From Parabacteroides distasonis (GTDB taxonomy: Bacteria; Bacteroidota; Bacteroidia; Bacteroidales; Tannerellaceae), in assembly GCF_004793765.1 (NCBI RefSeq), contig NZ_SRYM01000009.1, positions 1 to 64,000 of the forward strand: 64,000 nt of DNA. The letters run 5' to 3'. Shown here piece after piece: positions 10,434 through 59,378 of this stretch. Each line of letters opens with the position of its first letter. The stretch's first letter is position 1. The notes beneath the pieces were generated by a model. The model searched no databases. It saw nothing but the letters and a program-made list of their open reading frames with translations, and was not told where the DNA came from. The position numbers were made by a program, and so were the translations under genes.

Positions 10434-10534
10434 TTGCAGTGTTGCTGCAATCCCTGTTGCAGTATTACTGCAATCCTTGTTGCAGTACTGCCGCAAACAG
10501 TGGTGCAGTACTACTGCAACCCCACTTGCAGTAG
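10434..10534. repeat. Array of TTGCAGTA palindromes, 23-bp period
   Basis: Four and a half copies of a 17-bp palindromic word start at 10434, 10457, 10480, 10503 and 10526, exactly 23 bp apart. The second copy is perfect (TTGCAGTA-T-TACTGCAA). The others have one or a few changes, and the fifth is a half copy. The 6-bp spacers differ (TCCCTG, TCCTTG, ACAGTG, CCCCAC). The array fills the convergent junction and runs into the 3' end of the GH3-like gene. Confidence 0.9.
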
Positions 10535-12025
10535 CTCTTCCATATAGGAGCGATCGTTACAGAGGCGGGGGATCTTGTGTTGTCCGCCTAGTTTGCCTTT
10601 CTGCTTGAGCCATTCATAGAAAGCACCGTCGCGGGCGATAATGACCTCCAGCGGTTGAAGGGAGATCTCTTTATACCGTTTCGCCTCATAGTCCGAATTC
10701 AACTTTTGCAAGTTCTGATCCAACAGAGTGGCGAATTCATCAAGGGATTCCGGTTTCTTGTCAAACTCGATAAACCATTGGTGTCGCCCTTTCGCCTTAT
10801 CCAGCATAAAGAGTGGGGCGGCGGTATATTCTTTTACTTTCGCTCCGGTTCGTAGGCAAGTCATGGCGATCGCCTTATCGGCGTTATTCACCATTAGCTC
10901 CTCGCCAAAGGCGTTGATAAAGTGCTTGGTACGTCCGGAGATAACGAGTTTATGAGGGAATAACGAGGTGAAACGTACCGTATCCCCGATCTGATAGCGC
11001 CATAATCCTCCCGAGGTCGTGATTACCATCGCATAGTTTTTCCCGGTCTCTACCGATTCCAACGGCAACACGGTCGGATGGGTGCTACCCATCTCGTTCA
11101 CCGGGATGAACTCATAGAAAATACCGTAATCCGGCATTATAAGCAAACTGGGGTCTGCCGGATCGTCTTGCAGCCCGAAGAAACCCTCGGATGCGTTATA
11201 GGTCTCCATATAATGCATCTTATCCGATGGAATCAAGGTTTTATATTGCTCCCGGTAAGGCTCGAAACTGATTCCCCCATGGAAGAAGACTTCCAGGTTG
11301 GGCCATACGTCCGTAAGATATTCCCCGCCTGTTTTTTTCAATACGGCCTTGATCAATACCAACATCCAAGAAGGAACACCGGATAGGCTGTTTACATCCT
11401 TATTCCAAGTGTTCTCCACGATCGCCTTGATCTTGCTTTCCCATTCATCCATTAGGATGATGGGTTTCTTGGGGACGCGTATTAAATTGACGAGCGGATT
11501 GAGATTTTGAAGTAATACGGCGGATAAGTCGCCTTGGTGAGCCTCGGAGTTTAGCGAGGAAGGGCTATGGCTACCGCCCAATATCAAGCCTTTCTTGGAG
11601 AAGAAACGGCTTTCCGGGTTGTTTCGCAGATAAATGGCCACGCAATCGAAGCCTCCCTTATAGTGGCAGCCCTTCAATATCTCGGGGGTGACGGGCAGGA
11701 ATTTGCTTTTGTCGTTCGTGGTTCCGCTACTCTTAGCGTACCACCGCACCACCGAAGGCCAGAGAATATTCTTTTCTCCGTTTATCATTCGGGTGACATA
11801 CGGTTTTATGTCGTCATAAGTTTGTAAAGGAAGACGTTGGCAGAAGTCTGAATAAGAGCGAATGCTTTTATAATCATATTTGAGCCCCCATTCCGTCTTG
11901 CGTGCCATCGAAAGCAGAGCATGCAATTGTTTGCGCTGGATATGGTCTATATCCCGCCCAAATCGTCCGATCTCCGTTTGTCGATGGCGGAAAAGGAGCG
12001 AAATCGTCTGTGTTAAAATATCCAT
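10511..12025 (-). CDS. GH3-superfamily acyl-adenylating-like protein
   Basis: A 504-residue protein of the GH3 family (named after plant auxin-responsive proteins). These share the acyl-adenylate/firefly-luciferase fold and conjugate amino acids to small acids in plants. Bacterial substrates are unknown. Supporting segments are YAKSSGTTNDKSKFLP (ATP-phosphate-binding-like loop), YNASEGFFGLQDD and GLWRYQIGDTVRFTS. The last seven codons and the stop lie inside the TTGCAGTA palindrome array, so its C-terminus (LLQVGLQ) is made of repeat DNA. Confidence 0.85.
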   Translation of the reverse strand: MDILTQTISLLFRHRQTEIGRFGRDIDHIQRKQLHALLSMARKTEWGLKYDYKSIRSYSDFCQRLPLQTYDDIKPYVTRMINGEKNILWPSVVRWYAKSSGTTNDKSKFLPVTPEILKGCHYKGGFDCVAIYLRNNPESRFFSKKGLILGGSHSPSSLNSEAHQGDLSAVLLQNLNPLVNLIRVPKKPIILMDEWESKIKAIVENTWNKDVNSLSGVPSWMLVLIKAVLKKTGGEYLTDVWPNLEVFFHGGISFEPYREQYKTLIPSDKMHYMETYNASEGFFGLQDDPADPSLLIMPDYGIFYEFIPVNEMGSTHPTVLPLESVETGKNYAMVITTSGGLWRYQIGDTVRFTSLFPHKLVISGRTKHFINAFGEELMVNNADKAIAMTCLRTGAKVKEYTAAPLFMLDKAKGRHQWFIEFDKKPESLDEFATLLDQNLQKLNSDYEAKRYKEISLQPLEVIIARDGAFYEWLKQKGKLGGQHKIPRLCNDRSYMEELLQVGLQ

Positions 12026-12047
12026 GCTCTTTCTATTTGTTCGAGTG

Positions 12048-12055
12048 CAAATGTA
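12048..12055 (-). promoter_or_regulatory. -7 promoter element for the GH3-like gene
   Basis: TACATTTG on the minus strand fits TAnnTTTG and is 23 bp from the start codon at 12025. Confidence 0.5.
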
Positions 12056-12074
12056 GGCATTCTCTTTTTATTTA

Positions 12075-12082
12075 TATCTTTG
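12075..12082 (+). promoter_or_regulatory. -7 promoter element for pfkA
   Basis: TATCTTTG fits TAnnTTTG and is 24 bp before the ATG at 12106. It lies back to back with the promoter of the GH3-like gene. Confidence 0.5.
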
Positions 12083-12105
12083 CTAAGTACTAAATTAACG
12101 TTACG

Positions 12106-13119
12106 ATGAAAATAGGGATTCTCTCATCGGGTGGCGATTGCCCCGGTATCAACGCTACGATCCGTGGTGTTGGCAAGACCGCTATCATGCATTATGGTAT
12201 GGAAGTTATCGGTATTCATAGCGGTTTTATAGGTCTTTTGAATAAGGACATCCAAGTTTTCGATGAACGGAGTTTATCCGGCATATTGAATTTAGGGGGA
12301 ACTATTTTAGGAACGTCCAGAGAGAAGCCTTTCCGTAAGCTCTTGGCCTCGGGAGATTCGGAAAAGCCTGAGATCATTAAGAGAAATTATGAGGAGCTAG
12401 GATTGGACTGCTTGGTTTGTATCGGAGGAAACGGTACGCAGAAGACGGCCAATCTATTATCTCAGATCGGGTTGAACGTGATAGGCATTCCCAAGACGAT
12501 CGATAATGACATATGGGGTACGGATATTACGTTCGGTTTCAATACCGCCGTGAATATCGCCACGGAATCTATAGACCGTCTTCATTCTACGGCTAGCTCC
12601 CATAAGCGGGTGATGGTTGTGGAGGTGATGGGCCATCATGCCGGATGGATCGCCTTGTATGCCGGGATGGCTGGAGGTGCCGACGTGATCTTACTTCCAG
12701 AATTGGGATACGATATCGATAAGGTGAACGAGGCGATCTTGGATCGGGCTCGCAGGGGCAAGCCTTACTCCATCGTGGTGGTGGCCGAGGGTATCGAGAC
12801 TTCGGATAAAAAGCGTCCTTCTGATTATATCACCCGGGCTATCGAGGCGGGAACGGGTATTGAGACTCGTGATACCGTATTGGGATATACCCAACGGGGT
12901 GGAAACCCCTCTCCGTTCGACCGTAACCTCGCTACCCGCTTGGGAGGCCATGCCACGGAACTGATCGCTAATGGTGAATTCGGGCGTATGGTTTGTATAA
13001 AAGGAGACACGGTGGAATCTATTCCTTTGTCGGAAGTAGCAGGAAAACTAAAATTGGTGACACCGGACCATGATTTGATCGTGCAAGGGAAACGGATGGG
13101 CGTGACATTCGGGAAATAA
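12106..13119 (+). CDS. pfkA: 6-phosphofructokinase
   Basis: A 337-residue phosphofructokinase converting fructose 6-phosphate to fructose 1,6-bisphosphate in glycolysis. The catalytic loop reads PKTIDND, and the substrate segments (VMVVEVMGHHAGW, MGG-type ILLPE) are in place. Two positions that track the phosphate donor are unusual. The GGDGS motif of E. coli PfkA is GGNGT here, keeping the ATP-type glycine but with Asn for the metal-binding Asp. The glycine of PGTIDND is Lys, as in pyrophosphate-dependent enzymes. The donor (ATP or PPi) is therefore uncertain. Confidence 0.93.
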   Translation: MKIGILSSGGDCPGINATIRGVGKTAIMHYGMEVIGIHSGFIGLLNKDIQVFDERSLSGILNLGGTILGTSREKPFRKLLASGDSEKPEIIKRNYEELGLDCLVCIGGNGTQKTANLLSQIGLNVIGIPKTIDNDIWGTDITFGFNTAVNIATESIDRLHSTASSHKRVMVVEVMGHHAGWIALYAGMAGGADVILLPELGYDIDKVNEAILDRARRGKPYSIVVVAEGIETSDKKRPSDYITRAIEAGTGIETRDTVLGYTQRGGNPSPFDRNLATRLGGHATELIANGEFGRMVCIKGDTVESIPLSEVAGKLKLVTPDHDLIVQGKRMGVTFGK

Positions 13120-13121
13120 TA

Positions 13122-13162
13122 AAGAACTCTCGAAAGCAGGATGATAGCTTTTGGGAGTTCTT
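13122..13162. terminator. Shared terminator between pfkA and rnc
   Basis: AAGAACTC...AAAGC pairs with GCTTT...GAGTTCTT between two convergent genes. T-rich sequence follows on the minus-strand side (TTTATTATTT). It probably serves both directions. Confidence 0.65.
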
Positions 13163-13175
13163 CATGTCGGAAATT

Positions 13176-14018
13176 TTATACAGTTTTTTCCTCGGGGAGC
13201 TCTGAAAACTCTTTTTCATCGGTTAATTCACCAGTCTTCTTTTTCTTTGTGGCAGAGATTCGCTGCTGGAGTTCTTTGTCTGTCCGCAATCTTTTGATCG
13301 CCATTTTAGAAGCCGCTTGCTGTGACTCTTTTTTAGAGTAGCCGATACCTATGCCAATTTGCTCGCCGAGCAATTTAATCGCGCTTTGGAATACAGGATT
13401 CCCATTATGATCCGTAAAAGATTCTATTAGATCGAATGAGATCGATACTTTTTTCTTTTGGCTCCATTCAATCAAGTTTGATTTGAAATTTATCTCTTTC
13501 CTGACGAGCATATCTACATTGATATACTTTTCTATCATCACGTCGCGGATAAACTTATAACAAACATCATAACCTTGATCCAGATAAATAGCGCCGATCA
13601 AAGCCTCGAGCGCATTACCATACATATGATTGTTATGAGAGTTTATCTTGGTTGAATAGACTACCAATTGATCTAGGCCGAGTTGTACTGCGATCTTATT
13701 CATCGTCTCCCGTTGTACGATCTTGGAGCGTGTGTTTGTCAAAAAGCCTTCTCTCTTATTAGGGTAGCGCTTATAGACAATATCAGCGACCGCCGCATTC
13801 AAGATTCCATCTCCTAAAAACTCAAGGCGTTCATTGTTAATCCATTTACCATCACCCGTCTCTACCGATGATGATTTATGCAACAAAGCCTGCTCGTAAA
13901 TCTGGAGATTATCCGGATAAAAACCTAGAATCTTTGATAAAGACAAATAAGGCTCCCTACCTTTATTTAGCAGGAGCCTTATTCTTTTATGTAGCTGTTT
14001 GTATAGCTTTCTAAACAC
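13176..14018 (-). CDS. rnc: Ribonuclease III
   Basis: A 280-residue double-stranded-RNA endonuclease that processes rRNA precursors and mRNA. The signature NERLEFLGD (residues 62-70) holds catalytic acidic residues Glu63, Glu66 and Asp70. A C-terminal dsRNA-binding domain (about residues 180-245, ending SKKESQQAASKMAIKRL) follows. A basic tail and a 20-35-residue N-terminal extension make it longer than the E. coli enzyme, as is usual in Bacteroidetes. It lies 1 bp after fabF, in the acpP-fabF-rnc operon. Confidence 0.95.
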   Translation of the reverse strand: MFRKLYKQLHKRIRLLLNKGREPYLSLSKILGFYPDNLQIYEQALLHKSSSVETGDGKWINNERLEFLGDGILNAAVADIVYKRYPNKREGFLTNTRSKIVQRETMNKIAVQLGLDQLVVYSTKINSHNNHMYGNALEALIGAIYLDQGYDVCYKFIRDVMIEKYINVDMLVRKEINFKSNLIEWSQKKKVSISFDLIESFTDHNGNPVFQSAIKLLGEQIGIGIGYSKKESQQAASKMAIKRLRTDKELQQRISATKKKKTGELTDEKEFSELPEEKTV

Positions 14019-14019
14019 G

Positions 14020-15285
14020 TTATTTCACGAATTTTTTAACAATAGCACAAGCGTTGTGTCCGCCGAAACCAAACGTATTCGATAAAGCGGCTTTCACTTC
14101 TCTTTTTTGAGCCTTATTGAATGTGAAATTCAGTTTATAATCTATTTCAGGATCATCGTCGCCTTCAGCATGGTTAATGGTCGGCGGGATGATTCCATCG
14201 TTTATAGCCATAATACACAGGATCGTCTCTACCGCTCCGGCAGCGCCAAGCAAGTGACCGGTCATTGACTTTGTGGAACTGATATTCAGTTGATAGGCAT
14301 GCTCTCCGAACACATCTTTGATCGCCTTAACCTCTGAGATATCGCCTACGGGAGTCGATGTACCATGAACATTGATGTAATCAATGTCTTCCGGAGTCAT
14401 TCCCGCGTCTTCCAATGCGTTTCGCATCACCAACTTCGCCCCTAAACCATCCGGATGAGAAGCGGTTAAGTGATAAGCGTCGGCAGACATTCCGGTCCCA
14501 GCGATCTCGCAATATATTTTAGCGCCACGAGCTAATGCGTGCTCCATTTCTTCCAATACCAAGCAAGCTCCACCTTCACCCATCACGAATCCGTCACGAC
14601 TGGCGCTGAACGGGCGAGATGCGGTCTCAGGAGAATCATTACGTGTTGATAATGCGTTCATGGAGTTGAATCCACCTACACCCGATTCAGAGATAGCAGC
14701 TTCCGCTCCACCGGTGATGATGACATTAGCCTTGCCCAAACGGATATAATTGAATGCGTCACTGATAGCGTTTGTGGAAGATGCACAAGCTGAAACGGTC
14801 GCAAAGTTCGGGCCGTGGAATCCATAAAGCATGGAAATATGTCCGGCTGCGATATCCGAGATCATTTTCGGGATGAAGAACGGGTTAAATTTCGGACCGA
14901 TCGTATCTTTGATCTTCGCATAACTCAATACTTCCTCGTCAAATGTCTTGATACCACCGATACCTGAAGCGAAAATAACGCCGATACGGTTCTTATCTTC
15001 GTTATCCAAGTCCATTGCCGCGTCTTCGATTGCTTGTTTCGCCGCATCGATCGCAAATAAGCTATAACGATCACACTTGCGGGCTTCCTTACGATCCATG
15101 ACTTTCAACGGATCGAAGCCTTTAACTTCGCATGCAAATTGTGTCTTGAATTTGGATGCATCAAACTGAGTAATAGGTCCTGCGCCACTTTTTCCGTTGA
15201 TAATACCTTCCCATGTTTCGGGGAGGGTATTACCAAGAGGAGTAATAGCTCCAAGACCTGTTACTACAACTCTTTTTAATTCCAT
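14020..15285 (-). CDS. fabF: Beta-ketoacyl-ACP synthase II
   Basis: A 421-residue condensing enzyme extending acyl-ACP with malonyl-ACP in fatty-acid synthesis. The Cys-His-His triad is visible: Cys167 in TVSACASSTNAI, a His in INVHGTSTPVGD and a His in KSMTGHLLGAAGA. It starts 21 bp after acpP, which carries its substrate. Confidence 0.97.
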   Translation of the reverse strand: MELKRVVVTGLGAITPLGNTLPETWEGIINGKSGAGPITQFDASKFKTQFACEVKGFDPLKVMDRKEARKCDRYSLFAIDAAKQAIEDAAMDLDNEDKNRIGVIFASGIGGIKTFDEEVLSYAKIKDTIGPKFNPFFIPKMISDIAAGHISMLYGFHGPNFATVSACASSTNAISDAFNYIRLGKANVIITGGAEAAISESGVGGFNSMNALSTRNDSPETASRPFSASRDGFVMGEGGACLVLEEMEHALARGAKIYCEIAGTGMSADAYHLTASHPDGLGAKLVMRNALEDAGMTPEDIDYINVHGTSTPVGDISEVKAIKDVFGEHAYQLNISSTKSMTGHLLGAAGAVETILCIMAINDGIIPPTINHAEGDDDPEIDYKLNFTFNKAQKREVKAALSNTFGFGGHNACAIVKKFVK

Positions 15286-15306
15286 ACCTTTAGTTAAAAG
15301 GATTGA

Positions 15307-15543
15307 TTACTTCGCGTTAGCCTCGATGTAAGCGATAGCGTCACCTACAGTTGTAATCTTTTCTGCTTGATCGTCAGGAATTGAGATACCGAATTCTTTT
15401 TCGAACTCCATAATCAATTCTACAGTGTCAAGAGAGTCTGCTCCTAAATCGTTAGTAAAGCTTGCTTCGTTTGTAACTTCTGTTTCTTCAACACTTAACT
15501 TGTCAACGATGATAGCTTTTACTCTTTCAGCAACTTCAGACAT
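15307..15543 (-). CDS. acpP: Acyl carrier protein
   Basis: A 78-residue acidic four-helix carrier for growing acyl chains. The phosphopantetheine site is Ser37 in the DSL motif ([10 protein letters not shown]). It is the first gene of the acpP-fabF-rnc operon, read from a strong promoter. Confidence 0.97.
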
Positions 15544-15570
15544 AACTTTTTCAATTTAGATTAATAAATA

Positions 15571-15600
15571 CGAATATACTTTTTAAATTTGCAGTGCAAA
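15571..15600 (-). promoter_or_regulatory. acpP promoter
   Basis: On the minus strand: TTTG (15597-15600), an 18-bp spacer, then TATATTCG (15571-15578), 28 bp from the ATG. This fits the Bacteroidetes -33/-7 arrangement. Confidence 0.6.
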
Positions 15601-15697
15601 GAAAAGAATTTTTTATGTTACAAAGCAAATTTAATAAGCTAAAAATGCGGAAAACTGCACATTTTTTCTTTTCTTGTGCATTTAAACATCTGAAAAT

Positions 15698-16258
15698 ATG
15701 AAAAACATAGCGATTTTTGCTTCCGGATCTGGTACGAATGCCGAGAACATCACCCGATATTTTGCTAACAGTGAAAACGTTAATGTTGCGGTTGTTTTAT
15801 CAAATAACCGTAATGTTGGTGTGCACGGACGGGTAAACAAGTTGGGCGTGCCTTCTTTCGTGTTTTCACGGGAGGAATTCATTGCTGGTGTGCCTATCTT
15901 GGAAAAGTTGGTGGAATATGATGTTTGTCTTATCGTGTTGGCCGGTTTTATGAATAAGATCTCGGATGTGATTCTTCAGGCTTTTCCCGGGAAAATCGTG
16001 AACATCCATCCTGCGTTACTTCCTAAATATGGCGGTAAAGGAATGTATGGCATGCATGTGCATGAGGCGGTCGTGAAGGCCGGTGAGCGGGAGTCGGGTA
16101 TTACTATACATTATATTAATGAGCATTATGATGAGGGAGCCATTATTTTTCAGGCCTCTTGTCCGGTGCTTCCTTCGGACACACCGGAAGAGGTTGCCAA
16201 TAAAGTGCATGCTTTAGAATATAAACATTACCCGCATGTTATCGAGAGTTTATTATGA
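15698..16258 (+). CDS. purN: Phosphoribosylglycinamide formyltransferase
   Basis: A 186-residue PurN enzyme moving the formyl group from 10-formyl-tetrahydrofolate to GAR in purine synthesis. It shows the phosphate-binding start IAIFASGSGTNAE, the catalytic Asn102/His104 in VNIHPALLPKYGG and the downstream Asp in YDEGAIIFQ. It is divergent from acpP and convergent with pdxB, which ends 12 bp away. Confidence 0.95.
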   Translation: MKNIAIFASGSGTNAENITRYFANSENVNVAVVLSNNRNVGVHGRVNKLGVPSFVFSREEFIAGVPILEKLVEYDVCLIVLAGFMNKISDVILQAFPGKIVNIHPALLPKYGGKGMYGMHVHEAVVKAGERESGITIHYINEHYDEGAIIFQASCPVLPSDTPEEVANKVHALEYKHYPHVIESLL

Positions 16259-16270
16259 GCCTCTTGCCTA

Positions 16271-17380
16271 TCAAGCTATTTGAAAGCCTAGTCTTTTGAG
16301 CGTGATGTCTTCTTCTGGGGATGATCCGATTATGTGGTAAGCATGGAACTCGCGGGGATGATCATAATGCGCCCTGAACCACTCGAAGCGTTCCGGGCTT
16401 TCTCTGAGTTTTCTGTCAATCGTTTGCGGGTTAAAGCTTCGCAAGATGGTTTCTTCCACCCGATTCATGGCGAATTGTCCCAGCTCGATCACGGGATCAA
16501 ATGGAGCGGAGGGGACGACTTCCTTTATTTTGTCGATCTTAATACCGAAGAAGCGTTTGATATGTTCAAGGCACATCCGTGTCCCGTTCGCCTTCCCGTC
16601 AGCGGAGAAACCGGCTATATGGGGAGTGGCGATCGTGGCTTCCGACAGTAACTTCCGGTCGATATCCGGCTCGTTCTCCCAGCAATCGATGATCAGTTCG
16701 CTGACCTTGCCGGTTCGTTTGGCCTGCAATAAGGCTTGCGTATCATGTACGGCACCCCGGCAACTGTTGATAAACCAAGGATTTCGTTCTAATTTGTCGA
16801 AAAAAGCGTGATCGGCTAGGTGACGGGTGGCGAAGCGTCCCTCTTTGGTCAACGGTACATGTAAGGTGATAATATCCGCCTCTTTGGCGATCGTGTCCAA
16901 GGATACGAATCCATCTTCACCTTCCTGTTCGGCACGGGGCGGGTCATTGCGAAGCACGCGCATCCCCACAGTCTCGCATAGTCTCTCTACGATACTCCCT
17001 ACATGGCCTACGCCTACGATACCGATTGTCTTCCCCGCTAGCCTCTCTCCTTTACGGAGTGCGACGGCTACCAAAGAGGATAATACATATTGCCCCACGG
17101 AGGCGGCGTTGCAACCCGGCGCGTTCTTCCACGTGATCCCTGCCTTCTCGCAATAACGGGTGTCGATATGGTCGTAGCCGATGGTGGCCGTCGTGATCAG
17201 GCGTACCCGGCTACCTTCCAGCAGCTCGCGTGTACATTTATCTATGCTACGTACGACCAGGGCATCTGCGTCTTTTATGTTTGTGGGTGTGAACTCTTTG
17301 GAGTCAAGGTAGGATACGTCTGCTATCGGCTCCAAGATCCCTTTTAGGTAAGGAACCGTGTTATCTGCTATTATTTTCAT
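16271..17380 (-). CDS. pdxB: Erythronate-4-phosphate dehydrogenase
   Basis: A 369-residue D-2-hydroxyacid dehydrogenase of the PdxB type, the second step of DXP-dependent pyridoxal phosphate synthesis. The NAD-binding loop is GIVGVGHVGSIVE. The catalytic region includes NSCRGAVHD and the His in ATPHIAGFSADGK. The PdxB-specific C-terminal dimerisation domain is present after about residue 290. The alternative, a general phosphoglycerate dehydrogenase, is less likely given this domain. Confidence 0.92.
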   Translation of the reverse strand: MKIIADNTVPYLKGILEPIADVSYLDSKEFTPTNIKDADALVVRSIDKCTRELLEGSRVRLITTATIGYDHIDTRYCEKAGITWKNAPGCNAASVGQYVLSSLVAVALRKGERLAGKTIGIVGVGHVGSIVERLCETVGMRVLRNDPPRAEQEGEDGFVSLDTIAKEADIITLHVPLTKEGRFATRHLADHAFFDKLERNPWFINSCRGAVHDTQALLQAKRTGKVSELIIDCWENEPDIDRKLLSEATIATPHIAGFSADGKANGTRMCLEHIKRFFGIKIDKIKEVVPSAPFDPVIELGQFAMNRVEETILRSFNPQTIDRKLRESPERFEWFRAHYDHPREFHAYHIIGSSPEEDITLKRLGFQIA

Positions 17381-17444
17381 TTTATTAGCTTGATTATCGT
17401 TACGCGATATTAAGTAAAAAACAGGGGATATACAAGTGATGGGA

Positions 17445-17550
17445 GTTTCTTCTAGTGGAAACAGTGGTTTCTATTAAGGAAAACTTTTGTTTCTTGCTAC
17501 TAAAACATTAGTTTCACCTAAGAGAAACAAAAGTTTTAGTAGCAAGAAAT
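17445..17550. repeat. Array of GTTTCt...GAAAC palindromes, 22-bp period
   Basis: Five 18-bp imperfect palindromes start at 17445, 17467, 17489, 17511 and 17533, exactly 22 bp apart, with 4-bp spacers (AGTG, TTTT, ATTA, AAAA). Longer perfect inverted matches interleave. One is 17480-17494 with 17523-17537 (15 bp). The other is 17490-17506 with 17533-17549 (17 bp). It lies between pdxB and the MFS gene. Confidence 0.88.
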
Positions 17551-17584
17551 TTTAAAAAACTGTAATATGTTAATAATAGGGTGC

Positions 17585-18784: not shown

Positions 18785-18809
18785 AGAGACGTATCGTTTA
18801 TAAATAGTG

Positions 18810-18817
18810 CGAAATTA
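18810..18817 (-). promoter_or_regulatory. -7 promoter element for the MFS gene
   Basis: TAATTTCG on the minus strand fits TAnnTTCG, 26 bp from the start codon. Confidence 0.4.
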
Positions 18818-50494: not shown

Positions 50495-51370
50495 ATGGAT
50501 TCATTCAATATGAAAGGAAATTTTTTGTTGGGTTTAATAACCGCTTTCGCTCTTTTTTCCTCTTGTAGCAACATCCTGGAGGATTCCGGAAATTCCTTGG
50601 CGACAGCCAAGACTGGTAAACTCGGCCTTGCCCTTGAGGCAGATGCCTCCGTCTGTGTAACAACGAAAGCCACATCAACTACGTTTGTAACGATCAGCGA
50701 CGAAGTTAAAAATAATCTGGTGATCACCGGTACAAAAGATGGCAGCCCTATTACTTTAGGCAAATCCTCCGATTTCGCCAATGGGGCCACAAAGGCCGTT
50801 CCCGCCGGTACCTATACAGAACTATCAGCCACTTACGATAAAATGACTGGCGATTTGCAGTTCGACAGCCCCACGCTTGCGGGGAAGACAACGGAAAGCG
50901 TAACCATTACCCCTAACGCTGCGGCTGCCTCCGCTTCTATTACAGCCACGCTCACCAACTCGATCATCACGATCAATACGGAAGAGTTCGCTAAGTTGCA
51001 GAAGATGGCTACGATCACCAAGCTTTATGTGTACACTGGTACCGCCGATGACCCTACGGAAGAGAACCCGGAATATACCCTGCTATCCACCGCAAATACC
51101 CTAGAAACCGGCAAGACCTTGTTCGTGAAACCCGGCCTCTCAAATGTATTTATCCGTATAGAAGGCAAGCTGATCGCAGACGAGACCAAGATATTCTCCA
51201 TCTCGTCACAGATACGAGAATCGGAAGAGACTTCCATCACCGCTGCCACCAAGAACTACAGCGTACAATACAGTCTTGCGAACACGCAAGGCACATTAAC
51301 GTTGACCATCAACGTAAACGGAACAGTGGAGATTGTCGAGATACCGGTAGAGGTCAATCCTTACGAGTGA
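50495..51370 (+). CDS. DUF4493 lipoprotein 6
   Basis: A 291-residue lipoprotein (FSSC lipobox) of minimal DUF4493 length: KLGLALEADASVCVTTKAT, then a small Thr/Ala-rich beta domain. Codon 6 (50510) is an equally good start. It is the last gene of the colinear group and is followed by a palindrome array and an unrelated ATPase gene. Confidence 0.78.
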   Translation: MDSFNMKGNFLLGLITAFALFSSCSNILEDSGNSLATAKTGKLGLALEADASVCVTTKATSTTFVTISDEVKNNLVITGTKDGSPITLGKSSDFANGATKAVPAGTYTELSATYDKMTGDLQFDSPTLAGKTTESVTITPNAAAASASITATLTNSIITINTEEFAKLQKMATITKLYVYTGTADDPTEENPEYTLLSTANTLETGKTLFVKPGLSNVFIRIEGKLIADETKIFSISSQIRESEETSITAATKNYSVQYSLANTQGTLTLTINVNGTVEIVEIPVEVNPYE

Positions 51371-51395
51371 TTGTAGCGAGTCTGCGAAGGATGTA

Positions 51396-51487
51396 TCATC
51401 TTACACCCGCGACATAACACATCTTACATGGATAACATGATACATATTGTTGGTGTAAGATGTGTCATCTTCTCAATGTGCCAATTG
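51396..51487. repeat. Array of CATCTTACA / TGTAAGATG words, 23-bp period
   Basis: Four 23-bp units start at 51396, 51419, 51442 and 51465. Unit left halves read (T/A)CATCTTAC or a degraded form, and the third unit carries the right half TGTAAGATG. Interleaved inverted matches are present: 51391-51399 with 51437-51445, and 51397-51407 with 51452-51462. An extra 11-bp match pairs 51417-51427 with 51455-51465. It lies after the last DUF4493 gene. Confidence 0.75.
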
Positions 51488-51521
51488 TATTCAGATATCA
51501 TAGATATTCGCTTTTTTGTAG

Positions 51522-51529
51522 TAACTTTG
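51522..51529 (+). promoter_or_regulatory. -7 promoter element for the AAA-ATPase-like gene
   Basis: TAACTTTG fits TAnnTTTG, 42 bp before the ATG at 51571. Confidence 0.4.
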
Positions 51530-51570
51530 TGCTATTGTATAACGTGGAAGATAAAGAAAAATAGAGCCGT

Positions 51571-53295
51571 ATGATACCCAATATTACCATCCCCTATGCC
51601 GTGGCCGACTTCGCTGATTTGCGCAAGCGAGGTTTTTATTATGTGGACAAGACACGTTTTATTCCTTATCTGGAACGTTATAACGCACCGGTATTCTTGC
51701 GTCCGAGGCGTTTCGGGAAAAGCCTTTTGGTCTCTATGCTCGCCCATTACTACGATCGGAGTAAGTCTCATCGCTTTGAGGAGCTTTTCGGGGGAACGTG
51801 GATCGGTGCCAATCCTACGCCGGAGCATAACCAATACATGATTATCCGCTATGACTTTTCGAAGATGGTGCTGGATGAGACGATGGAGGGGTTGGAGCGT
51901 AACTTTAATATATTGAACTGTTCTCCCGTGGAGATTATGGTGGAGCATAATCGCAATCTCTTTGGAGACTTCAAGTTCTCTACCAAGGGCAACGCCACGC
52001 AGATGCTGGAGGAGGCTTTGGCTTATGCCCGGGCGCACGATTTGCCCAAGGTTTATATCCTTATCGATGAGTACGATAATTTCACAAACCAATTGCTTAC
52101 GGCCTATAAGGATCCGCTTTACGAGTCTGTCACCACTGGCGAGAGTTTCTTGCGTACTTTTTTCAAGGCTATCAAGGCCGGTATCGGCGAGGGAAGTATC
52201 CGTACTTGTTTTTGTTTGGGTGTGTTGCCTGTTACGATGGATGACTTGACGAGTGGCTATAATATCGCCGAGATTCTTACCTTGAAGCCTGATTTCACGG
52301 AGATGTTAGGTTTCAATCATGAGGAGGCTGCTGAGTATCTGCGCTATGTTATCCGTAAATATGGCAATAACGAGGATCATTTCGACGAGCTGTGGACGCT
52401 TATCGTAAACAACTATGATGGCTATCGCTTCCTACCCAACGCACGTCCGTTATTTAATTCCACTATATTGACTTATTTCTTCAAGAACTTCGCCGAGCTG
52501 TTTGGAGGTGTCCCCGATGAGATGGTGGACGAGAACCTTCGCACGGATGTGAATTGGATCCGCCGCCTTACCATCACCTTGGAGAACGCGAAGGAGATGC
52601 TGGATGCCTTGGTGATCGATGGCGAGTTGATCTACTCTCAACCGGATCTGAGGAGTAAGTTCAACAAGCAGAAGTTCTTCGATCCGGAGTTTTATCCCGT
52701 CAGTTTATATTACTTGGGCATGACAACGTTGAAAAACCAATTCAAGATGGTGTTGCCTAATTTGACAGCGCATAGTATTTACATGAATTATTACAACGAG
52801 TTAAACCGCATAAGTGACGATGCTCGCCGGTTTGTGCCAGCTTATGAGTCTTTCATGGATCATCGGAAGCTGGAGCCGCTGGTGGAAAATTATTTCAAGG
52901 AGTACCTCGGTCAGTTCCCGGCGCAAGTATTCGACAAGATCAACGAGAACTTTATCCGTTGCTCTTTCTTCGAGGTGTTGAGTCGTTACTTGAGCAATTG
53001 CTATACCTTTGCCGTGGAGCAGAACTTGCCAAGCGGCCGTGCGGATTTGGTGCTGACGGGCATACCGGGCACCGCCTTCCACAATGATTGCCGGGTGGTG
53101 GAGTTCAAGTATTTCAAGGCGAAAGACGCTGCCATGATAGAGGCCTTGGAGGTTGTTCGTTCCGAGGATGCTGATCAGGTGAGAAGATATGCCGCTGATA
53201 TCAATCGGCAATTCCCCGCTTATCGCATGCGATCGTATGTGGTGTATATAGCGGCCGGGAAGGTTTGTAAGACATGGGAAATTATTAATCTCTAA
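51571..53295 (+). CDS. AAA-ATPase-like / PD-(D/E)XK nuclease-like protein
   Basis: A 574-residue protein of the family with an N-terminal predicted AAA-ATPase-like domain and a C-terminal PD-(D/E)XK nuclease-superfamily domain, abundant and multi-copy in Bacteroidales. The P-loop-like segment is LRPRRFGKSLLVS (about residues 43-55) and the Walker-B-like is VYILIDEYDNF. The nuclease core reads GRADLVLTGI...RVVEFKYFK. The activity is untested in most members. It has its own promoter and no link to the surface locus beyond position, so it may be an insertion. Confidence 0.88.
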   Translation: MIPNITIPYAVADFADLRKRGFYYVDKTRFIPYLERYNAPVFLRPRRFGKSLLVSMLAHYYDRSKSHRFEELFGGTWIGANPTPEHNQYMIIRYDFSKMVLDETMEGLERNFNILNCSPVEIMVEHNRNLFGDFKFSTKGNATQMLEEALAYARAHDLPKVYILIDEYDNFTNQLLTAYKDPLYESVTTGESFLRTFFKAIKAGIGEGSIRTCFCLGVLPVTMDDLTSGYNIAEILTLKPDFTEMLGFNHEEAAEYLRYVIRKYGNNEDHFDELWTLIVNNYDGYRFLPNARPLFNSTILTYFFKNFAELFGGVPDEMVDENLRTDVNWIRRLTITLENAKEMLDALVIDGELIYSQPDLRSKFNKQKFFDPEFYPVSLYYLGMTTLKNQFKMVLPNLTAHSIYMNYYNELNRISDDARRFVPAYESFMDHRKLEPLVENYFKEYLGQFPAQVFDKINENFIRCSFFEVLSRYLSNCYTFAVEQNLPSGRADLVLTGIPGTAFHNDCRVVEFKYFKAKDAAMIEALEVVRSEDADQVRRYAADINRQFPAYRMRSYVVYIAAGKVCKTWEIINL

Positions 53296-53310
53296 CGTAA
53301 AGGACAAGAC

Positions 53311-54702
53311 ATGAGACATTTATTGATTATTCTATTTTATTTTTCTTTTCTCTCAATCTTTATGGCCCATGGGCAGCCGGAGAATGAGAAATCCAAGGGT
53401 GATTCATTTTTGTTCTCTTTTATACCCGGAGAGGCTGATATTCAAGCTACATACGGGAATAATTCCATAGAGATGGAACGCTTGAGCCGGAAAATCTGGC
53501 CGGTGATGAACCCTTTGATGGATGGGGAGTTTCATGTGTTGATCGTCTCGCATATCTATACCGAGACAGGGGCGGTATCCAAGACTGCCGTGAATACGGC
53601 AATGTGGAGAGGGAATACCGTACGGAAATACCTGAAAAATAAATATGAACTTGATAACAAACAGATATCCTTTTACGTGGATCGTAGCGGGGAGTGGGGG
53701 AATAGTGTGCATGTATATCTGCTTTATTTCGCTATGCCGGAATTTGCTAATAAACAGATCTTTTATTCCACGGATCAGTCTGTACCCGCTATCTCATCGA
53801 GCCTAAAACGATATGCGGAGGTTCCTTATATTTATGTACTCAACGATCCCGATCTTTGCGTGGATGATGAGGTCTTTGCCTATGTGGTGATAAACAATAA
53901 GGCAGACCTTCCTTATGAGGAAGGTGCGATGCTTCCGGTGGCTCCGCCAACGCAGGAAAAAGTGAGACAAGCTTCGGAAGTTGTTCAACCGGTCCGGACG
54001 GAGCCAAAAATTGTCCGGCAGGCAACGGTAGACGTAGCACCTGAGCCGCAAGCGCAAGAAAAGCGATCTGCTGTGTACCAACCTCGACAAGAGGCAACTC
54101 GTGCCGTGCAGAAAGTCTATCCTACTTACCAAACGGCTAACCTGACGGTACGCACGAATCTCTTGCCTTGGGCTACCTTGTCGCCCGGATTAAGTATCGG
54201 AACAAAAGGTGCTGAGTTTAAGACCGGAGCTATCATGCCCAACTTGGAATTGGAGTATATGTTTGGGGGGTGGGGATCTGTTGTTTTGGGCGGTACTTAT
54301 TCGCGGTTCGGTTATAAAAGCAATCCGGATAATTTGTGGGGTATATCGGCGTTGATGCTCGAACCTCGTCTTTGGTTCAATGATGATGGTACGTATTGCG
54401 GGTTTAACGTGGGCTTGCAAATGAAATACGGTAATTTCAATGTGCGAGACAATGAGCCGTTAGGACATGGTGAGACAGGGCAATTCTTTGGGATTGGTGC
54501 TATGCTGAACTATTTACAACCGATTTCCGGAGGCTGGGCGTTCGAGGCCGGGCTGGGCTTCGGTACGCGGATCACCTTCGATGCCTCTACCTATACCCGC
54601 GATTATAACACGCAGGTGAGCGAGACCGTGGATAATTTCTCTCTGACCCATTTCATGCTGAATTTCCGGCTGGCGCTGGTGTATAGGTTTGGATTTAAAT
54701 AA
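53311..54702 (+). CDS. DUF3575 outer-membrane protein with OmpA-like N-terminus
   Basis: A 463-residue secreted protein. A signal peptide ends near AHGQ. Residues about 30-165 contain an OmpA-C-like alpha/beta pattern (VLIVSHIYTETGAV, MWRGNTVRKYLKNKY), and a Pro/Gln/Val-rich linker (about 210-275) follows. The C-terminal half is a DUF3575-type beta-barrel-like domain (TVRTNLLPWATLSPGLSIG ... LALVYRFGFK). Such genes accompany fimbrial loci in Bacteroidales. It starts 15 bp after the ATPase gene. Confidence 0.8.
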   Translation: MRHLLIILFYFSFLSIFMAHGQPENEKSKGDSFLFSFIPGEADIQATYGNNSIEMERLSRKIWPVMNPLMDGEFHVLIVSHIYTETGAVSKTAVNTAMWRGNTVRKYLKNKYELDNKQISFYVDRSGEWGNSVHVYLLYFAMPEFANKQIFYSTDQSVPAISSSLKRYAEVPYIYVLNDPDLCVDDEVFAYVVINNKADLPYEEGAMLPVAPPTQEKVRQASEVVQPVRTEPKIVRQATVDVAPEPQAQEKRSAVYQPRQEATRAVQKVYPTYQTANLTVRTNLLPWATLSPGLSIGTKGAEFKTGAIMPNLELEYMFGGWGSVVLGGTYSRFGYKSNPDNLWGISALMLEPRLWFNDDGTYCGFNVGLQMKYGNFNVRDNEPLGHGETGQFFGIGAMLNYLQPISGGWAFEAGLGFGTRITFDASTYTRDYNTQVSETVDNFSLTHFMLNFRLALVYRFGFK

Positions 54703-54758
54703 AGACGGGGGCATTTGCCACCCGCTCTCATCCTTTTTGAGGACGGATGGGTATACGA

Positions 54759-54869
54759 TTAATCGAACCTCTTTAACCACTCTCTCCCTCGTTTGGTGCT
54801 GATGATGATACAGCCGATTATGCCAATAATAGCAAATGTGCCGAATACTGCGACTGCTGGTGTAATCAT
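54759..54869 (-). CDS. Small 36-residue single-span membrane protein
   Basis: A short open frame, MITPAVAVFGTFAIIG..., with one hydrophobic helix of about 20 residues followed by the basic tail STKRGREWLKRFD. It is too short for most gene finders. It lies convergent to the DUF3575 gene and upstream of metG. The helix plus positive-inside tail is a common pattern for real small membrane proteins, but nothing else confirms it. Confidence 0.45.
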   Translation of the reverse strand: MITPAVAVFGTFAIIGIIGCIIISTKRGREWLKRFD

Positions 54870-54937
54870 ATTTGCTGATTAAATGAATACTTTGTGGCAA
54901 AGAAAACCATTCTTTTTCAATAAATCAAATTATTCCG

Positions 54938-54945
54938 TACCTTTG
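54938..54945 (+). promoter_or_regulatory. -7 promoter element for metG
   Basis: TACCTTTG fits TAnnTTTG and lies 25 bp before the ATG at 54970. It makes the upstream frame start at 54883 unlikely. Confidence 0.55.
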
Positions 54946-54969
54946 CCCCTCAAAAAGAGAACACAAGGT

Positions 54970-57009
54970 ATGGAAAAACATTTTAAGAGAACGCTGATTA
55001 CTACGGCGTTGCCGTATGCGAACGGACCGGTGCATATCGGCCACTTGGCCGGGGTGTATGTGCCTGCTGATATTTATGCCCGTTACCTTCGTTTGAAGGG
55101 AGAGGAAGTGTTGATGATTGGTGGTTCGGACGAGCATGGGGTACCCATCACGTTGAGAGCGAAGAAGGAGGGGATCACGCCGCAGGATGTGGTGGATCGT
55201 TACCACGGTATTATCAAGAAATCGTTCGAGGAGTTCGGTATCACGTTTGATATCTATTCCCGTACTACTTCCGCTACGCATCATCAGATGGCCTCGGATT
55301 TTTTCCGTACATTGTATGATAAAGGCGAATTCATCGAGAAAACAAGCGAGCAATACTACGATGAGGAGGCGAAGCAATTCTTGGCCGACCGTTATATCAC
55401 GGGTACTTGTCCGCATTGTGGAAACGAGAAGGCGTATGGCGATCAGTGCGAGGCTTGCGGTACGTCTCTTAGCCCGACGGATTTGATCGATCCGAAATCC
55501 GCTATCAGTGGCAGCAAGCCGGTGATGCGTGAGACGAAGCATTGGTATCTGCCTTTGGACAAGTGGGAGCCGTTTTTGCGTAAATGGATCTTGGAGGATC
55601 ATAAGGAATGGAAACCGAACGTATATGGGCAGTGTAAGAGCTGGCTGGATATGGGACTGCAACCCCGTGCGGTGAGCCGTGACTTGGATTGGGGTATCCC
55701 TGTTCCCGTGGAAGGGGCGGAAGGAAAGGTGTTGTATGTATGGTTCGACGCTCCGATCGGTTATATCTCTAATACGAAAGAGTTGCTGCCGGATAGCTGG
55801 GAGACTTGGTGGAAGGATCCGGAGACTAAAATGGTCCATTTCATCGGTAAAGATAATATCGTGTTCCATTGTATCGTATTCCCTTCCATGCTGAAAGCGG
55901 AAGGTTCTTATAACTTGCCGGAGAATGTCCCCGCTAACGAGTTCTTGAACTTGGAGGGCGACAAGATCTCTACTTCCCGCAACTGGGCGGTTTGGTTGAA
56001 CGAGTATCTGGTGGATATGCCGGGCAAGCAAGACGTGTTGCGCTATGTCTTGACGGCCAACGCGCCGGAGACAAAGGATAATGATTTCACATGGAAAGAT
56101 TTTCAGGCTCGTAATAATAATGAGTTGGTCGCTATCTTAGGGAACTTCGTGAATCGTGCGTTAGTCCTTACGGATAAGTATTTCGAGGGTAAGGTGCCGG
56201 CGGCTGGCGAGTTGACGGATTATGATCGTCAGACCTTGAAGGATTTCGCGGATGTGAAAGAGAACGTGGAACGCCTGTTGGATACCTACCACTTCCGTGA
56301 CGCGCAGAAAGAGGCGATGAACCTAGCCCGTATCGGAAATAAGTATCTCGCTGATATGGAACCTTGGAAGTTGGCGAAGACGGATATGCCTCGTGTCGCT
56401 ACGATCATGAATATCGCTTTGCAGATTACGGCTAATCTGGCGATCGCTTTCGAACCGTTCTTGCCGTTTAGCATGGAGAAACTGAACAAGATGCTGAATG
56501 TAGAGCCGTTGGGATGGAATCGCCTAGGTGCTACGGATCTATTGGAGGCCGGTCATCCATTGGGCAAGGCAGAATTGCTGTTCGAGAAGATAGAAGATAG
56601 CGTGATCGAGGCTCAAGTGCAGAAATTATTGGATACGAAGAAAGCGAATGAGGAGGCGAACTATAAGGCGAAACCGATCCGTGAGAATATCGAGTTCGAT
56701 GATTTCATGAAACTGGATATCCGTGTGGGTACGGTGCTGGAATGCGTGAAGGTTCCGAAAGCGGATAAGCTGCTTCAGTTCCGTATAGACGATGGTCTGG
56801 AGAAACGTACGATCGTATCGGGCATCGCCCAACATTATAAACCCGAGGAATTGGTAGGCAAGCAAGTTTGCTTCATCGCTAACTTAGCTCCCCGTAAGCT
56901 GAAAGGCATTGTTTCCGAGGGCATGATTCTCTCCGCCGAGAATTTCGATGGAAAGCTGGCCGTTATCACTCCGGAGAAAGAGGTGAAACCGGGTAGCGAG
57001 GTGAAATAA
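54970..57009 (+). CDS. metG: Methionine--tRNA ligase
   Basis: A 679-residue class I synthetase. It shows the HIGH motif HIGH (residues 22-25), the zinc knuckle [18 protein letters not shown] (about 145-162) and the KMSKS-type DKISTSRN. After the anticodon-binding region comes a C-terminal tRNA-binding (EMAP-II-like) domain ([15 protein letters not shown], about 573-679), as in the long E. coli-type enzyme. A longer frame opens at 54883 but is excluded by the promoter. Confidence 0.97.
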
Positions 57010-57030
57010 TAAGGTAAACGCAATAATGAG

Positions 57031-57070
57031 GGGGCTATTCCGTTTTAACGACGGGATAGCCCTATTTTTT
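57031..57070 (+). terminator. Terminator after metG
   Basis: GGGCTAT-CCG pairs with CGG-ATAGCCC and is followed by TATTTTTT, directly before the aminotransferase gene. Confidence 0.75.
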
Positions 57071-57072
57071 GA

Positions 57073-58212
57073 ATGGATAAGATGCTTGAGAAACAGATAC
57101 AGATGGTAGATCTGCGGAAGCAGTATGAACGTTTGCGTAGTGAGATCGATCCCGCCATGCAAACGGTGATAAATGCTTGTGCCTTTATCAATGGCCCTCA
57201 GGTGAAGGGATTTTGTAACCATTTATCAGATTATTTAGGTGTTCCTTATGTGATCCCGTGCGGCAACGGTACAGATGCCTTGCAAATCTCCTTGATGGCA
57301 TTAGACTTACATCCGGGCGATGAGGTGATCGTTCCTGCTTTTACATATATCGCTGCGGCTGAGGTGGCTTTGGCTCTTGGCCTAGTGCCGGTATTAGTGG
57401 ATGTAGATCCCCAAACATTCAATATAGACCCGGAAAAGATAGAAGATGCCTTGTCTGAAAAGACGAGAGCTATTATCGCGGTTCATCTTTTTGGCCAATG
57501 TTGTGATATGGAATCGATCTTGCGTATCGCTGGCCGCCATAATCTATATGTGATCGAGGATAATGCCCAGTCCATCGGGGCTGATTATACTTTCTCGGAT
57601 GGAACGGTGAAGAAAGCCGGTACGATCGCCTCTATAGGAACGACCTCCTTCTTCCCTTCGAAACCGTTGGCTTGTTATGGTGATGGTGGGGCGATGTTTA
57701 CTTCCGACGCACGATTGGCCGAACGACTGCGAATGATCGCCAATCATGGGCAAAAGGTAAAATATCATCATGCTTTGGTGGGCTGCAACTCCCGTTTGGA
57801 TACCTTGCAGGCCGCTGTCTTAGATGTTAAGCTTCGGTATTTGGATGAATTTGCCGCCGCTCGTTGTAAAGTGGCCGCTAGATACGATGCTGCCTTTTCC
57901 GGATTGAATGCTGTACGCAAACCGCTAAAATCAGCCTTTTCATCGCATGTCTATCATCAATATACGATACAGCTAGCTGTAGATAAGAGGGATCAGGTAC
58001 AAGCGGTGTTAAAAGAACGAGGCATTCCTTCTATGATTTATTATCCATTGCCTTTGCAGGAGCAAGAGGTGATGAGGGGGCGATGCCGGATTTCCGGAGA
58101 TTTGAATGTCGCTTCTCGCTTGAGCCGATCCGTATTATCCTTGCCGATTCATACGGAGATGACAGAAGAGGAGCAGGCTTATATTATAGAATCTATAAAG
58201 AGTGTTTTATGA
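57073..58212 (+). CDS. DegT/DnrJ/EryC1/StrS-family sugar aminotransferase
   Basis: A 379-residue PLP-dependent enzyme that aminates a keto-sugar nucleotide, similar to WbpE/WlbC. The PLP lysine is Lys197 in FFPSKPLACYGDGG, and the cofactor-binding ENDAQSIGA-like segment (EDNAQSIGADY) is present. Its stop overlaps the start of the oxidoreductase gene by 4 bp (ATGA), so the pair is translationally coupled and probably sequential in a 3-amino-sugar pathway. The ATG at codon 4 is an alternative start. Confidence 0.88.
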   Translation: MDKMLEKQIQMVDLRKQYERLRSEIDPAMQTVINACAFINGPQVKGFCNHLSDYLGVPYVIPCGNGTDALQISLMALDLHPGDEVIVPAFTYIAAAEVALALGLVPVLVDVDPQTFNIDPEKIEDALSEKTRAIIAVHLFGQCCDMESILRIAGRHNLYVIEDNAQSIGADYTFSDGTVKKAGTIASIGTTSFFPSKPLACYGDGGAMFTSDARLAERLRMIANHGQKVKYHHALVGCNSRLDTLQAAVLDVKLRYLDEFAAARCKVAARYDAAFSGLNAVRKPLKSAFSSHVYHQYTIQLAVDKRDQVQAVLKERGIPSMIYYPLPLQEQEVMRGRCRISGDLNVASRLSRSVLSLPIHTEMTEEEQAYIIESIKSVL

Positions 58213-59228
58213 ATAAGAAGATACGTTTCGCCGTGATCGGCTGTGGTCATATAGGTAAGCGTCATGCCGAGATGATTACCCGGGATGAAGGGGCGGAGTT
58301 GGTCGCTTTGTGTGATATCCGTCCGAAAGAGGAGCTGGGGATCGAGGCTTACGCAGTCCCTTTCGCCCGGAATATAGATGAACTATTCCGTTTGGGATTG
58401 GATATAGATGTGGTGAATATTTGTACACCCAACGGTTTACATGCCGAGATGGCGATCCAAGCGATAGAAAGCGGACATCATGTGGTCATAGAAAAGCCGA
58501 TGGCCTTGACCTTGGCGGATGCCGAGAAAGTGGTTTATACCTCGTTGAGATTCCGTAAGCAGGTATTTTGCGTGATGCAAAACCGATATTCCCCGCCTTC
58601 GGTCTGGATCAAGGAGATGGTTGAGTCCGGAAAATTAGGCCAGATTTATATGGTGCAGCTGAATTGCTACTGGAACCGTGACGAACGCTACTATAAACCC
58701 GGAGGATGGCATGGCGACACTGCCTTGGATGGTGGTACCTTATTCACCCAATTCTCCCATTTCATTGACATTATGTACTGGCTATTCGGGGATATCTGTA
58801 ATATCCAGACCCGTTTCGCCGACTTCAACCACGAGAAACTGACCGCCTTTGAGGATTCCGGTTTCGTGAATTTTAATTTCGTGAACGGTGGAATGGGCAG
58901 TTTGAGCTACTCTACGGCGGTATGGGACAAAAATCTGGAAAGCAGCATGCTGATCGTGGCCGAGAATGGTAGCGTGAAAATCGGCGGTCAATATATGAAC
59001 GAGGTAGAATATTGCCATATAAAGGATTATGAGATGCCGGAATTGGCCCCTACCAACCCCGGCAATGATTATGGCCCTTACAAAGGCTCCGCCCAAAACC
59101 ACAACTTCGTGATCCGTAACGTGGTCAATGTCCTTTCCGGTGCCCCCGGCGAGATCATAACGACCAACGTCTTGGAAGGTATGAAGGTGGTGGATATTAT
59201 ACGGAGGATTTATGCGTTGAAGGGGTAA
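58209..59228 (+). CDS. Gfo/Idh/MocA-family oxidoreductase (WlbA/WbpB-like)
   Basis: A 339-residue NAD(P)-dependent sugar dehydrogenase. It shows the Rossmann loop VIGCGHIGKRHAEM, the catalytic EKP (residues 95-97, VVIEKPMAL) and the GGTLFTQFSHFID segment with its His. Together with the aminotransferase it fits the oxidation and amination steps at C3 of a UDP-GlcNAc-derived sugar acid. The acetyltransferase and other pathway genes are not in this window. Confidence 0.87.
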   Translation: MNKKIRFAVIGCGHIGKRHAEMITRDEGAELVALCDIRPKEELGIEAYAVPFARNIDELFRLGLDIDVVNICTPNGLHAEMAIQAIESGHHVVIEKPMALTLADAEKVVYTSLRFRKQVFCVMQNRYSPPSVWIKEMVESGKLGQIYMVQLNCYWNRDERYYKPGGWHGDTALDGGTLFTQFSHFIDIMYWLFGDICNIQTRFADFNHEKLTAFEDSGFVNFNFVNGGMGSLSYSTAVWDKNLESSMLIVAENGSVKIGGQYMNEVEYCHIKDYEMPELAPTNPGNDYGPYKGSAQNHNFVIRNVVNVLSGAPGEIITTNVLEGMKVVDIIRRIYALKG

Positions 59229-59260
59229 AGAGCCATTCCCAGGGATTACCTCGACTTATC

Positions 59261-59280
59261 TTGTTTTGTATACAGAACAA
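59261..59280. other. 20-bp near-perfect palindrome
   Basis: TTGTTTTGTATACAGAACAA differs from a perfect palindrome at one pair. It lies 15 bp before the palindrome array at 59295. It could be a binding site or the root of a hairpin. Confidence 0.45.
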
Positions 59281-59294
59281 AAATAGGGGATTTC

Positions 59295-59378
59295 ACAATA
59301 CTTAAGTGCATCGACCAAGTATCTTAGTTGCGTTGGCAAAGTATCTTAAGATACTTGGTCGATGAAGTTAAGATACTT
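59295..59378. repeat. Array of AAGTATCTTAAGATACTT palindromes, 22-bp period
   Basis: Four 18-bp units start at 59295, 59317, 59339 and 59361, exactly 22 bp apart, with 4-bp spacers (GACC, GGCA, GGTC). The third is the perfect palindrome, the others keep one good half. Longer inverted matches interleave. One is 59309-59326 with 59347-59364 (18 bp, perfect). The other is 59336-59349 with 59368-59381 (14 bp). Confidence 0.9.

Follow-up and report, generated by a model that had tools for sequence, protein, structure and literature searches.

Why should four gene junctions in one bacterial genome carry short palindromes repeated at nearly the same step, when the palindromic words themselves are unrelated? 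The question is raised by a stretch of 64,000 nucleotides from Parabacteroides distasonis (contig NZ_SRYM01000009.1, positions 1 to 64,000; hereafter the window), in which an initial annotation had pointed out four such arrays. A process that makes or recognizes the arrangement had been proposed, such as a phased DNA-binding protein, repeated copying of a hairpin, or a structured RNA; that interpretation is partly supported by the present analysis. By analogy, the best reading is that the arrays are short DNA repeats resembling repetitive extragenic palindromes (REPs) and miniature inverted-repeat transposable elements (MITEs), with a shared geometry and many words, and that they would work like BrickBuilt elements and like REPs and bacterial interspersed mosaic elements (BIMEs). 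In this reading, to which we would give about an even chance, the arrays form a large class of dispersed intergenic repeats, likely mobile, short, and non-autonomous, and dimeric proteins are predicted to recognize their half-sites as double-stranded DNA.

All four arrays are present where they had been described. A word-blind scanner, which sums reverse-complement matches at lag p (p of 14 to 45) over 92 bp, gave arrays 1 to 4 scores of 11.9, 9.9, 9.6, and 7.8 at the periods claimed for them, which are 23, 22, 23, and 22 bp, respectively. An unbiased sample of 464 kb, about 11% of the genome, was made up of the window and of 400 kb from contigs C89, C111, and C133 of the source genome (G000; C-numbers denote its contigs, L-numbers fetched loci), taken as consecutive blocks chosen independently of hits. 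At a score of at least 7 the sample yielded 31 peaks, the four window arrays and 27 more, while three order-2 Markov shuffles of the same 464 kb yielded none; at a score of 6, 46 peaks stood against 3.3 per shuffle. Shuffled DNA thus gives no such arrays, and the density in the sample is about one per 15 kb. The period is 21 to 24 bp in 27 of the 31 arrays (21 bp in three, 22 bp in eleven, 23 bp in twelve, and 24 bp in one), with single arrays at 31, 41, 44, and 45 bp. A wider set, partly selected by word and biased towards chosen junctions and words, comprised 137 peaks; 29 had a period outside 20 to 24 bp, and of the remaining 108, five were excluded for lying within called genes. In this set, 79 of the 108 arrays are 3.5 to 4.5 periods long and 11 are longer.

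The arrays are intergenic and lie mostly near the 3′ ends of genes. None of the 31 sampled arrays falls inside a called gene, the calls having been made with a home-made open reading frame (ORF) and codon model by which small genes are missed. The description of the window arrays as lying outside genes or at gene ends stands with one correction, in that array 1 overlaps the final 23 bp of the ORF of a GH3-domain gene. The last codons and the stop of this ORF (window 10511-10533) are within array 1, and the array therefore appears to have altered the GH3 C terminus relative to G004, which together with G017 and G023 is among the nearest relatives of G000. The 31 arrays occupy 28 junctions; ten of these are convergent, versus 13% of intergenic bases (p 0.002), and two are divergent, versus 31% (p 0.002). 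Window arrays 1, 2, and 4, restored after the removal of duplicates, are included in this test as well as in the terminator test described below. Among 50 tandem arrays of the wider set, the nearer gene end is the 3′ one in 40.

The words had been taken as private to each array, and this did not hold. In blastn searches of the source genome (E <= 0.01), the words of arrays 1, 2, and 4 recur at 20, 11 (18 at E <= 10), and 12 other sites, respectively, and that of array 3 at one, its clear relative being C89:164451-164534. As every word belongs to a dispersed family, dispersal must enter the explanation, a point that the initial annotation had missed. Average-linkage clustering of palindromic unit profiles, chosen because single linkage joins arrays too freely (77 of 122 fell into one family), sorted 28 arrays into 20 word families. 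This sample lacked window arrays 1, 2, and 4, which had been taken out as duplicates of other fetched copies, and the count predates their restoration; the family of array 2 would add one. Constant geometry combined with changing sequence holds across the sampled genome, and it holds across the genus as well.

A word-blind scan of related Bacteroidales, proposed earlier as a check, gave a divided answer. The neighbourhoods of pdxB at 31 Parabacteroides/Tannerellaceae loci (519 kb) contain 33 peaks, 24 of them at a period of 21-24 bp and six at 40-43 bp; the same neighbourhoods at 49 loci of other Bacteroidales (889 kb) contain six, at periods of 15, 16, 18, 20, 20, and 21 bp. Nineteen other stretches from the genus (343 kb; two under 2 kb) gave eight peaks at 20-24 bp, eight at 40-43 bp, and two at 14 bp, with none in shuffles. 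From 20 stretches of other Bacteroidales families (381 kb), nine peaks were obtained, two of them at 41 bp and three at 20-24 bp; one of these three looks like coding sequence and another like AT-rich DNA. Shuffles of this DNA gave one peak, at period 17. A 400-kb part of G004 with many core genes holds 16 arrays (periods 20-24 or 40-46 bp). The arrays are dense in the sampled Parabacteroides/Tannerellaceae and rare elsewhere in the Bacteroidales.

Comparison of orthologous junctions shows arrays that are kept, given another word, absent, or shortened by a unit, which is not a picture of random drift only. The array of junction 1 is absent from G004 and G017 (G023, in which the left flank did not align, is excluded). 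At junction 2, the word is GTTTC..GAAAC in G000, a mixture of GTGTCC/GGACAC and GTTTCC in G023, and AAAACACGTACGTGTTTT in G004, while G017 has a single 18-bp unit; judged from these sequences, G000 and G023 look like one array with an altered word. Twelve other fetched genus loci with the MFS gene before pdxB gave no array scores, the gap between the two genes being -4 to 99 bp in 11 of them and 1572 bp in one. Behind the G004 ortholog of the Gfo/Idh/MocA gene that precedes array 4, an array of a different word (ACGTACGT type) follows at a similar distance. Over three blocks in which G000 and G004 are 91.8-94.4% identical, 27 G000 arrays divide into nine with the same word in G004, three with another word after the same gene, one without an array, and 14 that are not assessable. 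The replaced sites are 17445, 59300, and C89 104826, the far side of the junction not being orthologous at the last two. Six arrays of G004, lying outside genes where the aligned pieces are interrupted, lack a G000 counterpart at threshold. Among the nine same-word pairs, G004 has one unit fewer at 76831. Over this distance, words are thus kept or replaced more than they drift.

Near-identical dispersed copies were seen for family IV, the family of array 4. Three copies of array 4, at identities of 93, 97, and 99% over 95-100 bp, are spread over C169, C93, and C111, and a query with the element gave 20 matches in G017. Eight of these G017 copies, when aligned, have the units and a tail, TTGCTCAGCCTTCGTCGCATTGGGG, in common, each with three or four direct units and one inverted unit. 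Their surroundings vary, with about five kinds of left flank and six of right flank; in some pairs a longer stretch of flank is common, in two groups because they adjoin similar longer sequence. A ninth copy, L376, without the tail, was excluded from the alignment, and a similar tail occurs in the G000 loci L173 and L176. By reading, the last unit of the 84-bp family IV copies is inverted and the three before it are direct. Over 93 arrays, the pair of first and last units leans towards the inverted arrangement in 49 cases and the direct one in 23, as compared with 30 and 55 for other pairs (paired p 9e-6), and this contrast holds by family (p 0.004).

The arrays typically consist of three to five words of rough two-fold symmetry, set at steps of 22-23 bp, and fall into many word families. 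As mobile elements, they would be dispersed by a trans-acting, transposase-like enzyme. A number of about four units may be a requirement of this putative enzyme or of a bound protein, while copying within the array and inversion of unit centres could help to keep the word uniform. Arrays would settle at 3′ ends because insertions are tolerated there; a use by the host, such as insulation or topology, is possible.

Several observations weigh against this picture. Among six indels of 50-400 bp between G000 and G004, none amounts to a clean filled/empty pair, or to a target duplication, for a 22/23-bp array. Among 67 arrays of the source genome, flanks beyond the array are common to only a few pairs, so the bounded element is shown for family IV only. 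By family, first-last inversion taken alone is not significant (20 versus 13, p 0.28). Of the 95 classified arrays in the wider, word-selected set, 19 stand at divergent junctions, a placement that is not rare there. Within the species the arrays are stable: of the 400 kb compared between G004 (a single contig of 4,811,379 bp) and P. distasonis TSDC17, to which it is about 98-99.5% identical in large aligned pieces, all 16 arrays align in place. As a candidate enzyme, the REP-associated tyrosine transposase (RAYT; PF01797, Y1_Tnp) was rejected, having no match in G000; of 38 genomes of the genus, 8 have it, with G004, G017, and G023 not among them. Around 122 arrays, a set biased towards selected junctions and words, no recurrent neighbour gene was found beyond the selected junctions except AAA-ATPase_like. 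The AAA-ATPase_like/PDDEXK_9 genes themselves were not retained as a partner, being near 6 of the 122 arrays, roughly chance by estimate. Rpn-type PDDEXK_2 nucleases, with seven matches in G000, were likewise unsupported, and carriage by phages was set aside since array 4, the only one searched, has no match in the phage collection.

A possible but doubtful alternative to mobile elements is that the arrays are DNA sites of the host, i.e., binding platforms (insulator, topology, or nucleoid) at 3′ ends for dimeric proteins, whose geometry would be selected and whose words would be replaceable. The enrichment at convergent junctions fits such sites, as do the different words that G000 and G004 carry after three same genes. 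The dyads also extend towards the centre, the innermost pair being complementary in 0.58 of the units (average over 43 families), where about one quarter would be expected from composition by estimate, and half-sites conform singly. Arrays differ less than their surroundings: 31 of 757 sites in the nine same-word G000/G004 pairs versus 112 of 1054 in 60-bp flanks, and, over 18 sites compared between G004 and TSDC17, 32 of 1476 versus 80 of 1614, most at three sites. The flank differences, however, come largely from a few pairs in which blocks have changed, and the lower divergence of the arrays is therefore not proof of selection. Moreover, about 20 words in 11% of the genome would demand either many proteins or one word-blind protein. 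In a further, unlikely reading, Parabacteroides would carry a word-blind machinery that makes, moves, or maintains arrays of about four palindromes at the 22-23-bp step, the geometry being inherited and the words replaced at the same gene end.

It is quite unlikely that the arrays act as RNA, either as multi-hairpin terminators or as stabilizers of 3′ untranslated regions, although structured RNA had been among the processes initially proposed. The location near stop codons would suit this function, and some words (AAAACACGTACGTGTTTTTT) resemble bidirectional terminators; at junction 1 of G004 and G017, a sequence that by eye resembles an ordinary inverted repeat (GCGCAT..ATGCGC in G004) takes the place of the G000 array. 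Tests for an RNA signature were negative. Sense-strand G-T mismatches are not in excess over A-C mismatches (200 versus 219 in 50 tandem arrays, run without a positive control), and T-tracts show no asymmetry (3.95 after arrays and 4.02 on the mirror side, 60 tandem arrays). Terminator-like sites were seen at 4 of the 36 3′ ends that have an array and at 14 of the 131 that lack one. Arms pair with their own partner no better than with those of other units (mean difference 0.00006; 40 up and 41 down, 87 arrays), and Rfam gave no gathering matches within the window. Intrinsic terminators, which are palindromes at gene 3′ ends, were hence rejected as a candidate, neither the expected sense-strand T-tract nor the tolerated G-U having been found. 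With no strand signature and no hairpin compensation, the constraint looks to be at the DNA level, and the sequences speak for double-stranded sites with a half-site constraint.

Repeated copying of a hairpin finds limited support. Between G004 and TSDC17 one unit has its centre flipped (AGGC to GCCT), and in each of two first units a cluster of changes creates or destroys a match to the array word. In the flank of G004 block position 119352, the loop of an ordinary strong hairpin is inverted relative to TSDC17 (TGTCATC / GATGACA), which suggests that the flip process may be general and not specific to arrays. Improbable as a full account is a purely mutational origin, in which template switching at hairpins makes and homogenizes the arrays with neither protein partner nor selection: these flips and clustered changes and the gain or loss of whole units would agree with it, but it leaves unexplained the words common to many loci, the fixed period across unrelated words, and the narrow taxonomic range.

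The reading as REP/MITE-like repeats draws on comparison with several known systems. REPs and REP doublets forming hairpins (REPINs; PMC3733652), as well as BIMEs, all mobilized by RAYTs, resemble the arrays in being short palindromes dispersed through intergenic DNA, with several word families per species and clusters of units. They differ in that the step is fixed here at 22-23 bp across unrelated words, in that no Y1_Tnp is present in G000 or its three nearest relatives, and in that no enrichment is seen for GTAG, CGTC, or GGAG (ranks 84, 117, and 94 of 136; 103 arrays, whole arrays scored), GTAG and CGTC reaching 0.81 and 0.57 of expectation.

BrickBuilt is a MITE-minisatellite of Porphyromonas gingivalis, for which PMC4596501 describes tandem 23-nt units at 19 intergenic sites in ATCC 33277, a leader and a tail around the units, and gain and loss of units between strains. 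As described there, it has one word family, 1 to 22.8 units without spacers, and IS5-like terminal inverted repeats. Compared by description only, the arrays share the tandem intergenic units of about 23 nt, the turnover of units, and a Bacteroidales host. They differ in the number of words, about 20 in 464 kb, in a usual count of three to five units that are mostly two-fold symmetric and are separated by spacers, and in the lack of target duplication in the six G000/G004 indels. The leader and tail may have a counterpart in the tail and units of the family IV copies of G017, with few flank-sharing pairs among the 67 own-genome arrays; the terminal repeats may have one in the inverted first and last units of family IV, with neither target duplication nor a clean empty site in the indels. 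The same paper cites tandem repeats of 22 and 41 nt in P. gingivalis, including the 41-nt repeats of MITE464/PgRS, and periods of 22, 23, and 41 bp recur here. Arrays with a period of 41-42 bp, made of two alternating palindromes, were seen at L338:15391-15603, L343:6978-7230, L347:11969-12211, and L328:3602-3789, their hosts being other Parabacteroides and one other Bacteroidales family; those at L338, L343, and L347, in other Parabacteroides, are like MITE464/PgRS by period only. Unlike intrinsic terminators, the arrays are without a strand signature, and by repeat form they would differ from CRISPR (clustered regularly interspaced short palindromic repeats), which has identical repeats, unique spacers, and cas genes close by, in that their repeats are degenerate palindromes with spacers of 4-6 bp, no search aimed at cas genes having been made. 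No paper on such arrays in Parabacteroides was found, in a search whose coverage of subscription journals was thin.

Table 1. The palindrome arrays of the window, the element holding array 4, and adjoining genes.
Feature	Position	Strand	Sequence features	Gene context
Array 1	10434..10533		Four 17-bp dyads of type TTGCAGTAnTACTGCAA and a half; 6-bp spacers; period 23	Between convergent PAP2 gene 9628-10413 (+) and GH3-domain gene 10511-12025 (-)
Array 2	17445..17549		18-bp units GTTTC(N8)GAAAC; 4-bp spacers; period 22	Between MFS transporter and pdxB genes, both - strand
Array 3	51390..51471		Word CATCTTACA; period 23	19 bp past DUF4493 gene 50495-51370 (+); before AAA-ATPase_like/PDDEXK_9 gene 51571-53295 (+)
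Array 4	59300..59381		Core AAGTATCTTAAGATACTT; period 22	71 bp past Gfo/Idh/MocA gene
Gfo/Idh/MocA gene	58083..59228	+		Upstream of array 4
Dispersed copy holding array 4	59298..59411	+	Right-hand tail AAGGGAATT..GGTTGCCCT, common to the copies on C169, C93, and C111	

The window arrays are listed in Table 1. Array 2 has four units and a fifth that is an inverted copy of unit 3, the scanner extent being 17445-17536 and the inverted arm reaching 17549. Interleaved inverted repeats had been reported for three of the four arrays; they are clear in array 2 (arms of 15 nt at 100% and 26 nt at 92%) and array 4 (26 nt at 92% and 14 nt at 100%) and weaker in array 3 (26 nt at 77% and 13 nt at 92%), and 30-40-nt arms also pair in array 1, at 70-73%. 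The gene after array 4 (window 59490-60632) has a weak match to the spr1629 family of repressors/antitoxins with an IrrE-like domain. An unusually long array, of about 6.7 units of 24 bp, lies at L255:12914-13074 in G023. Another dispersed hairpin element of about 100 bp, GTAGAGACGGGGCGTGCCCCGTCTC..., without 22/23-bp phasing, was seen at L118:976-1083; G023 has dozens of copies of it and G004 several. Three records filed as P. distasonis plasmids (NZ_OY725756.1, NZ_OY725757.1, and NZ_OY725761.1) carry ribosomal protein operons, rpoBC, and tRNA ligases and look, by gene content, like pieces of chromosome.

A word, together with its reading enzyme where that is understood, is what defines the known dispersed palindromes of bacteria. 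In the present case a single geometry is common to about 20 words within one tenth of the genome and is seen again across the genus, and RAYT is absent from all four of the closest genomes examined. What recognizes the spacing has thereby become a testable question, and the arrays may unite the scattered 22-, 23-, and 41-nt repeats of Porphyromonas with a general type of Bacteroidales element.

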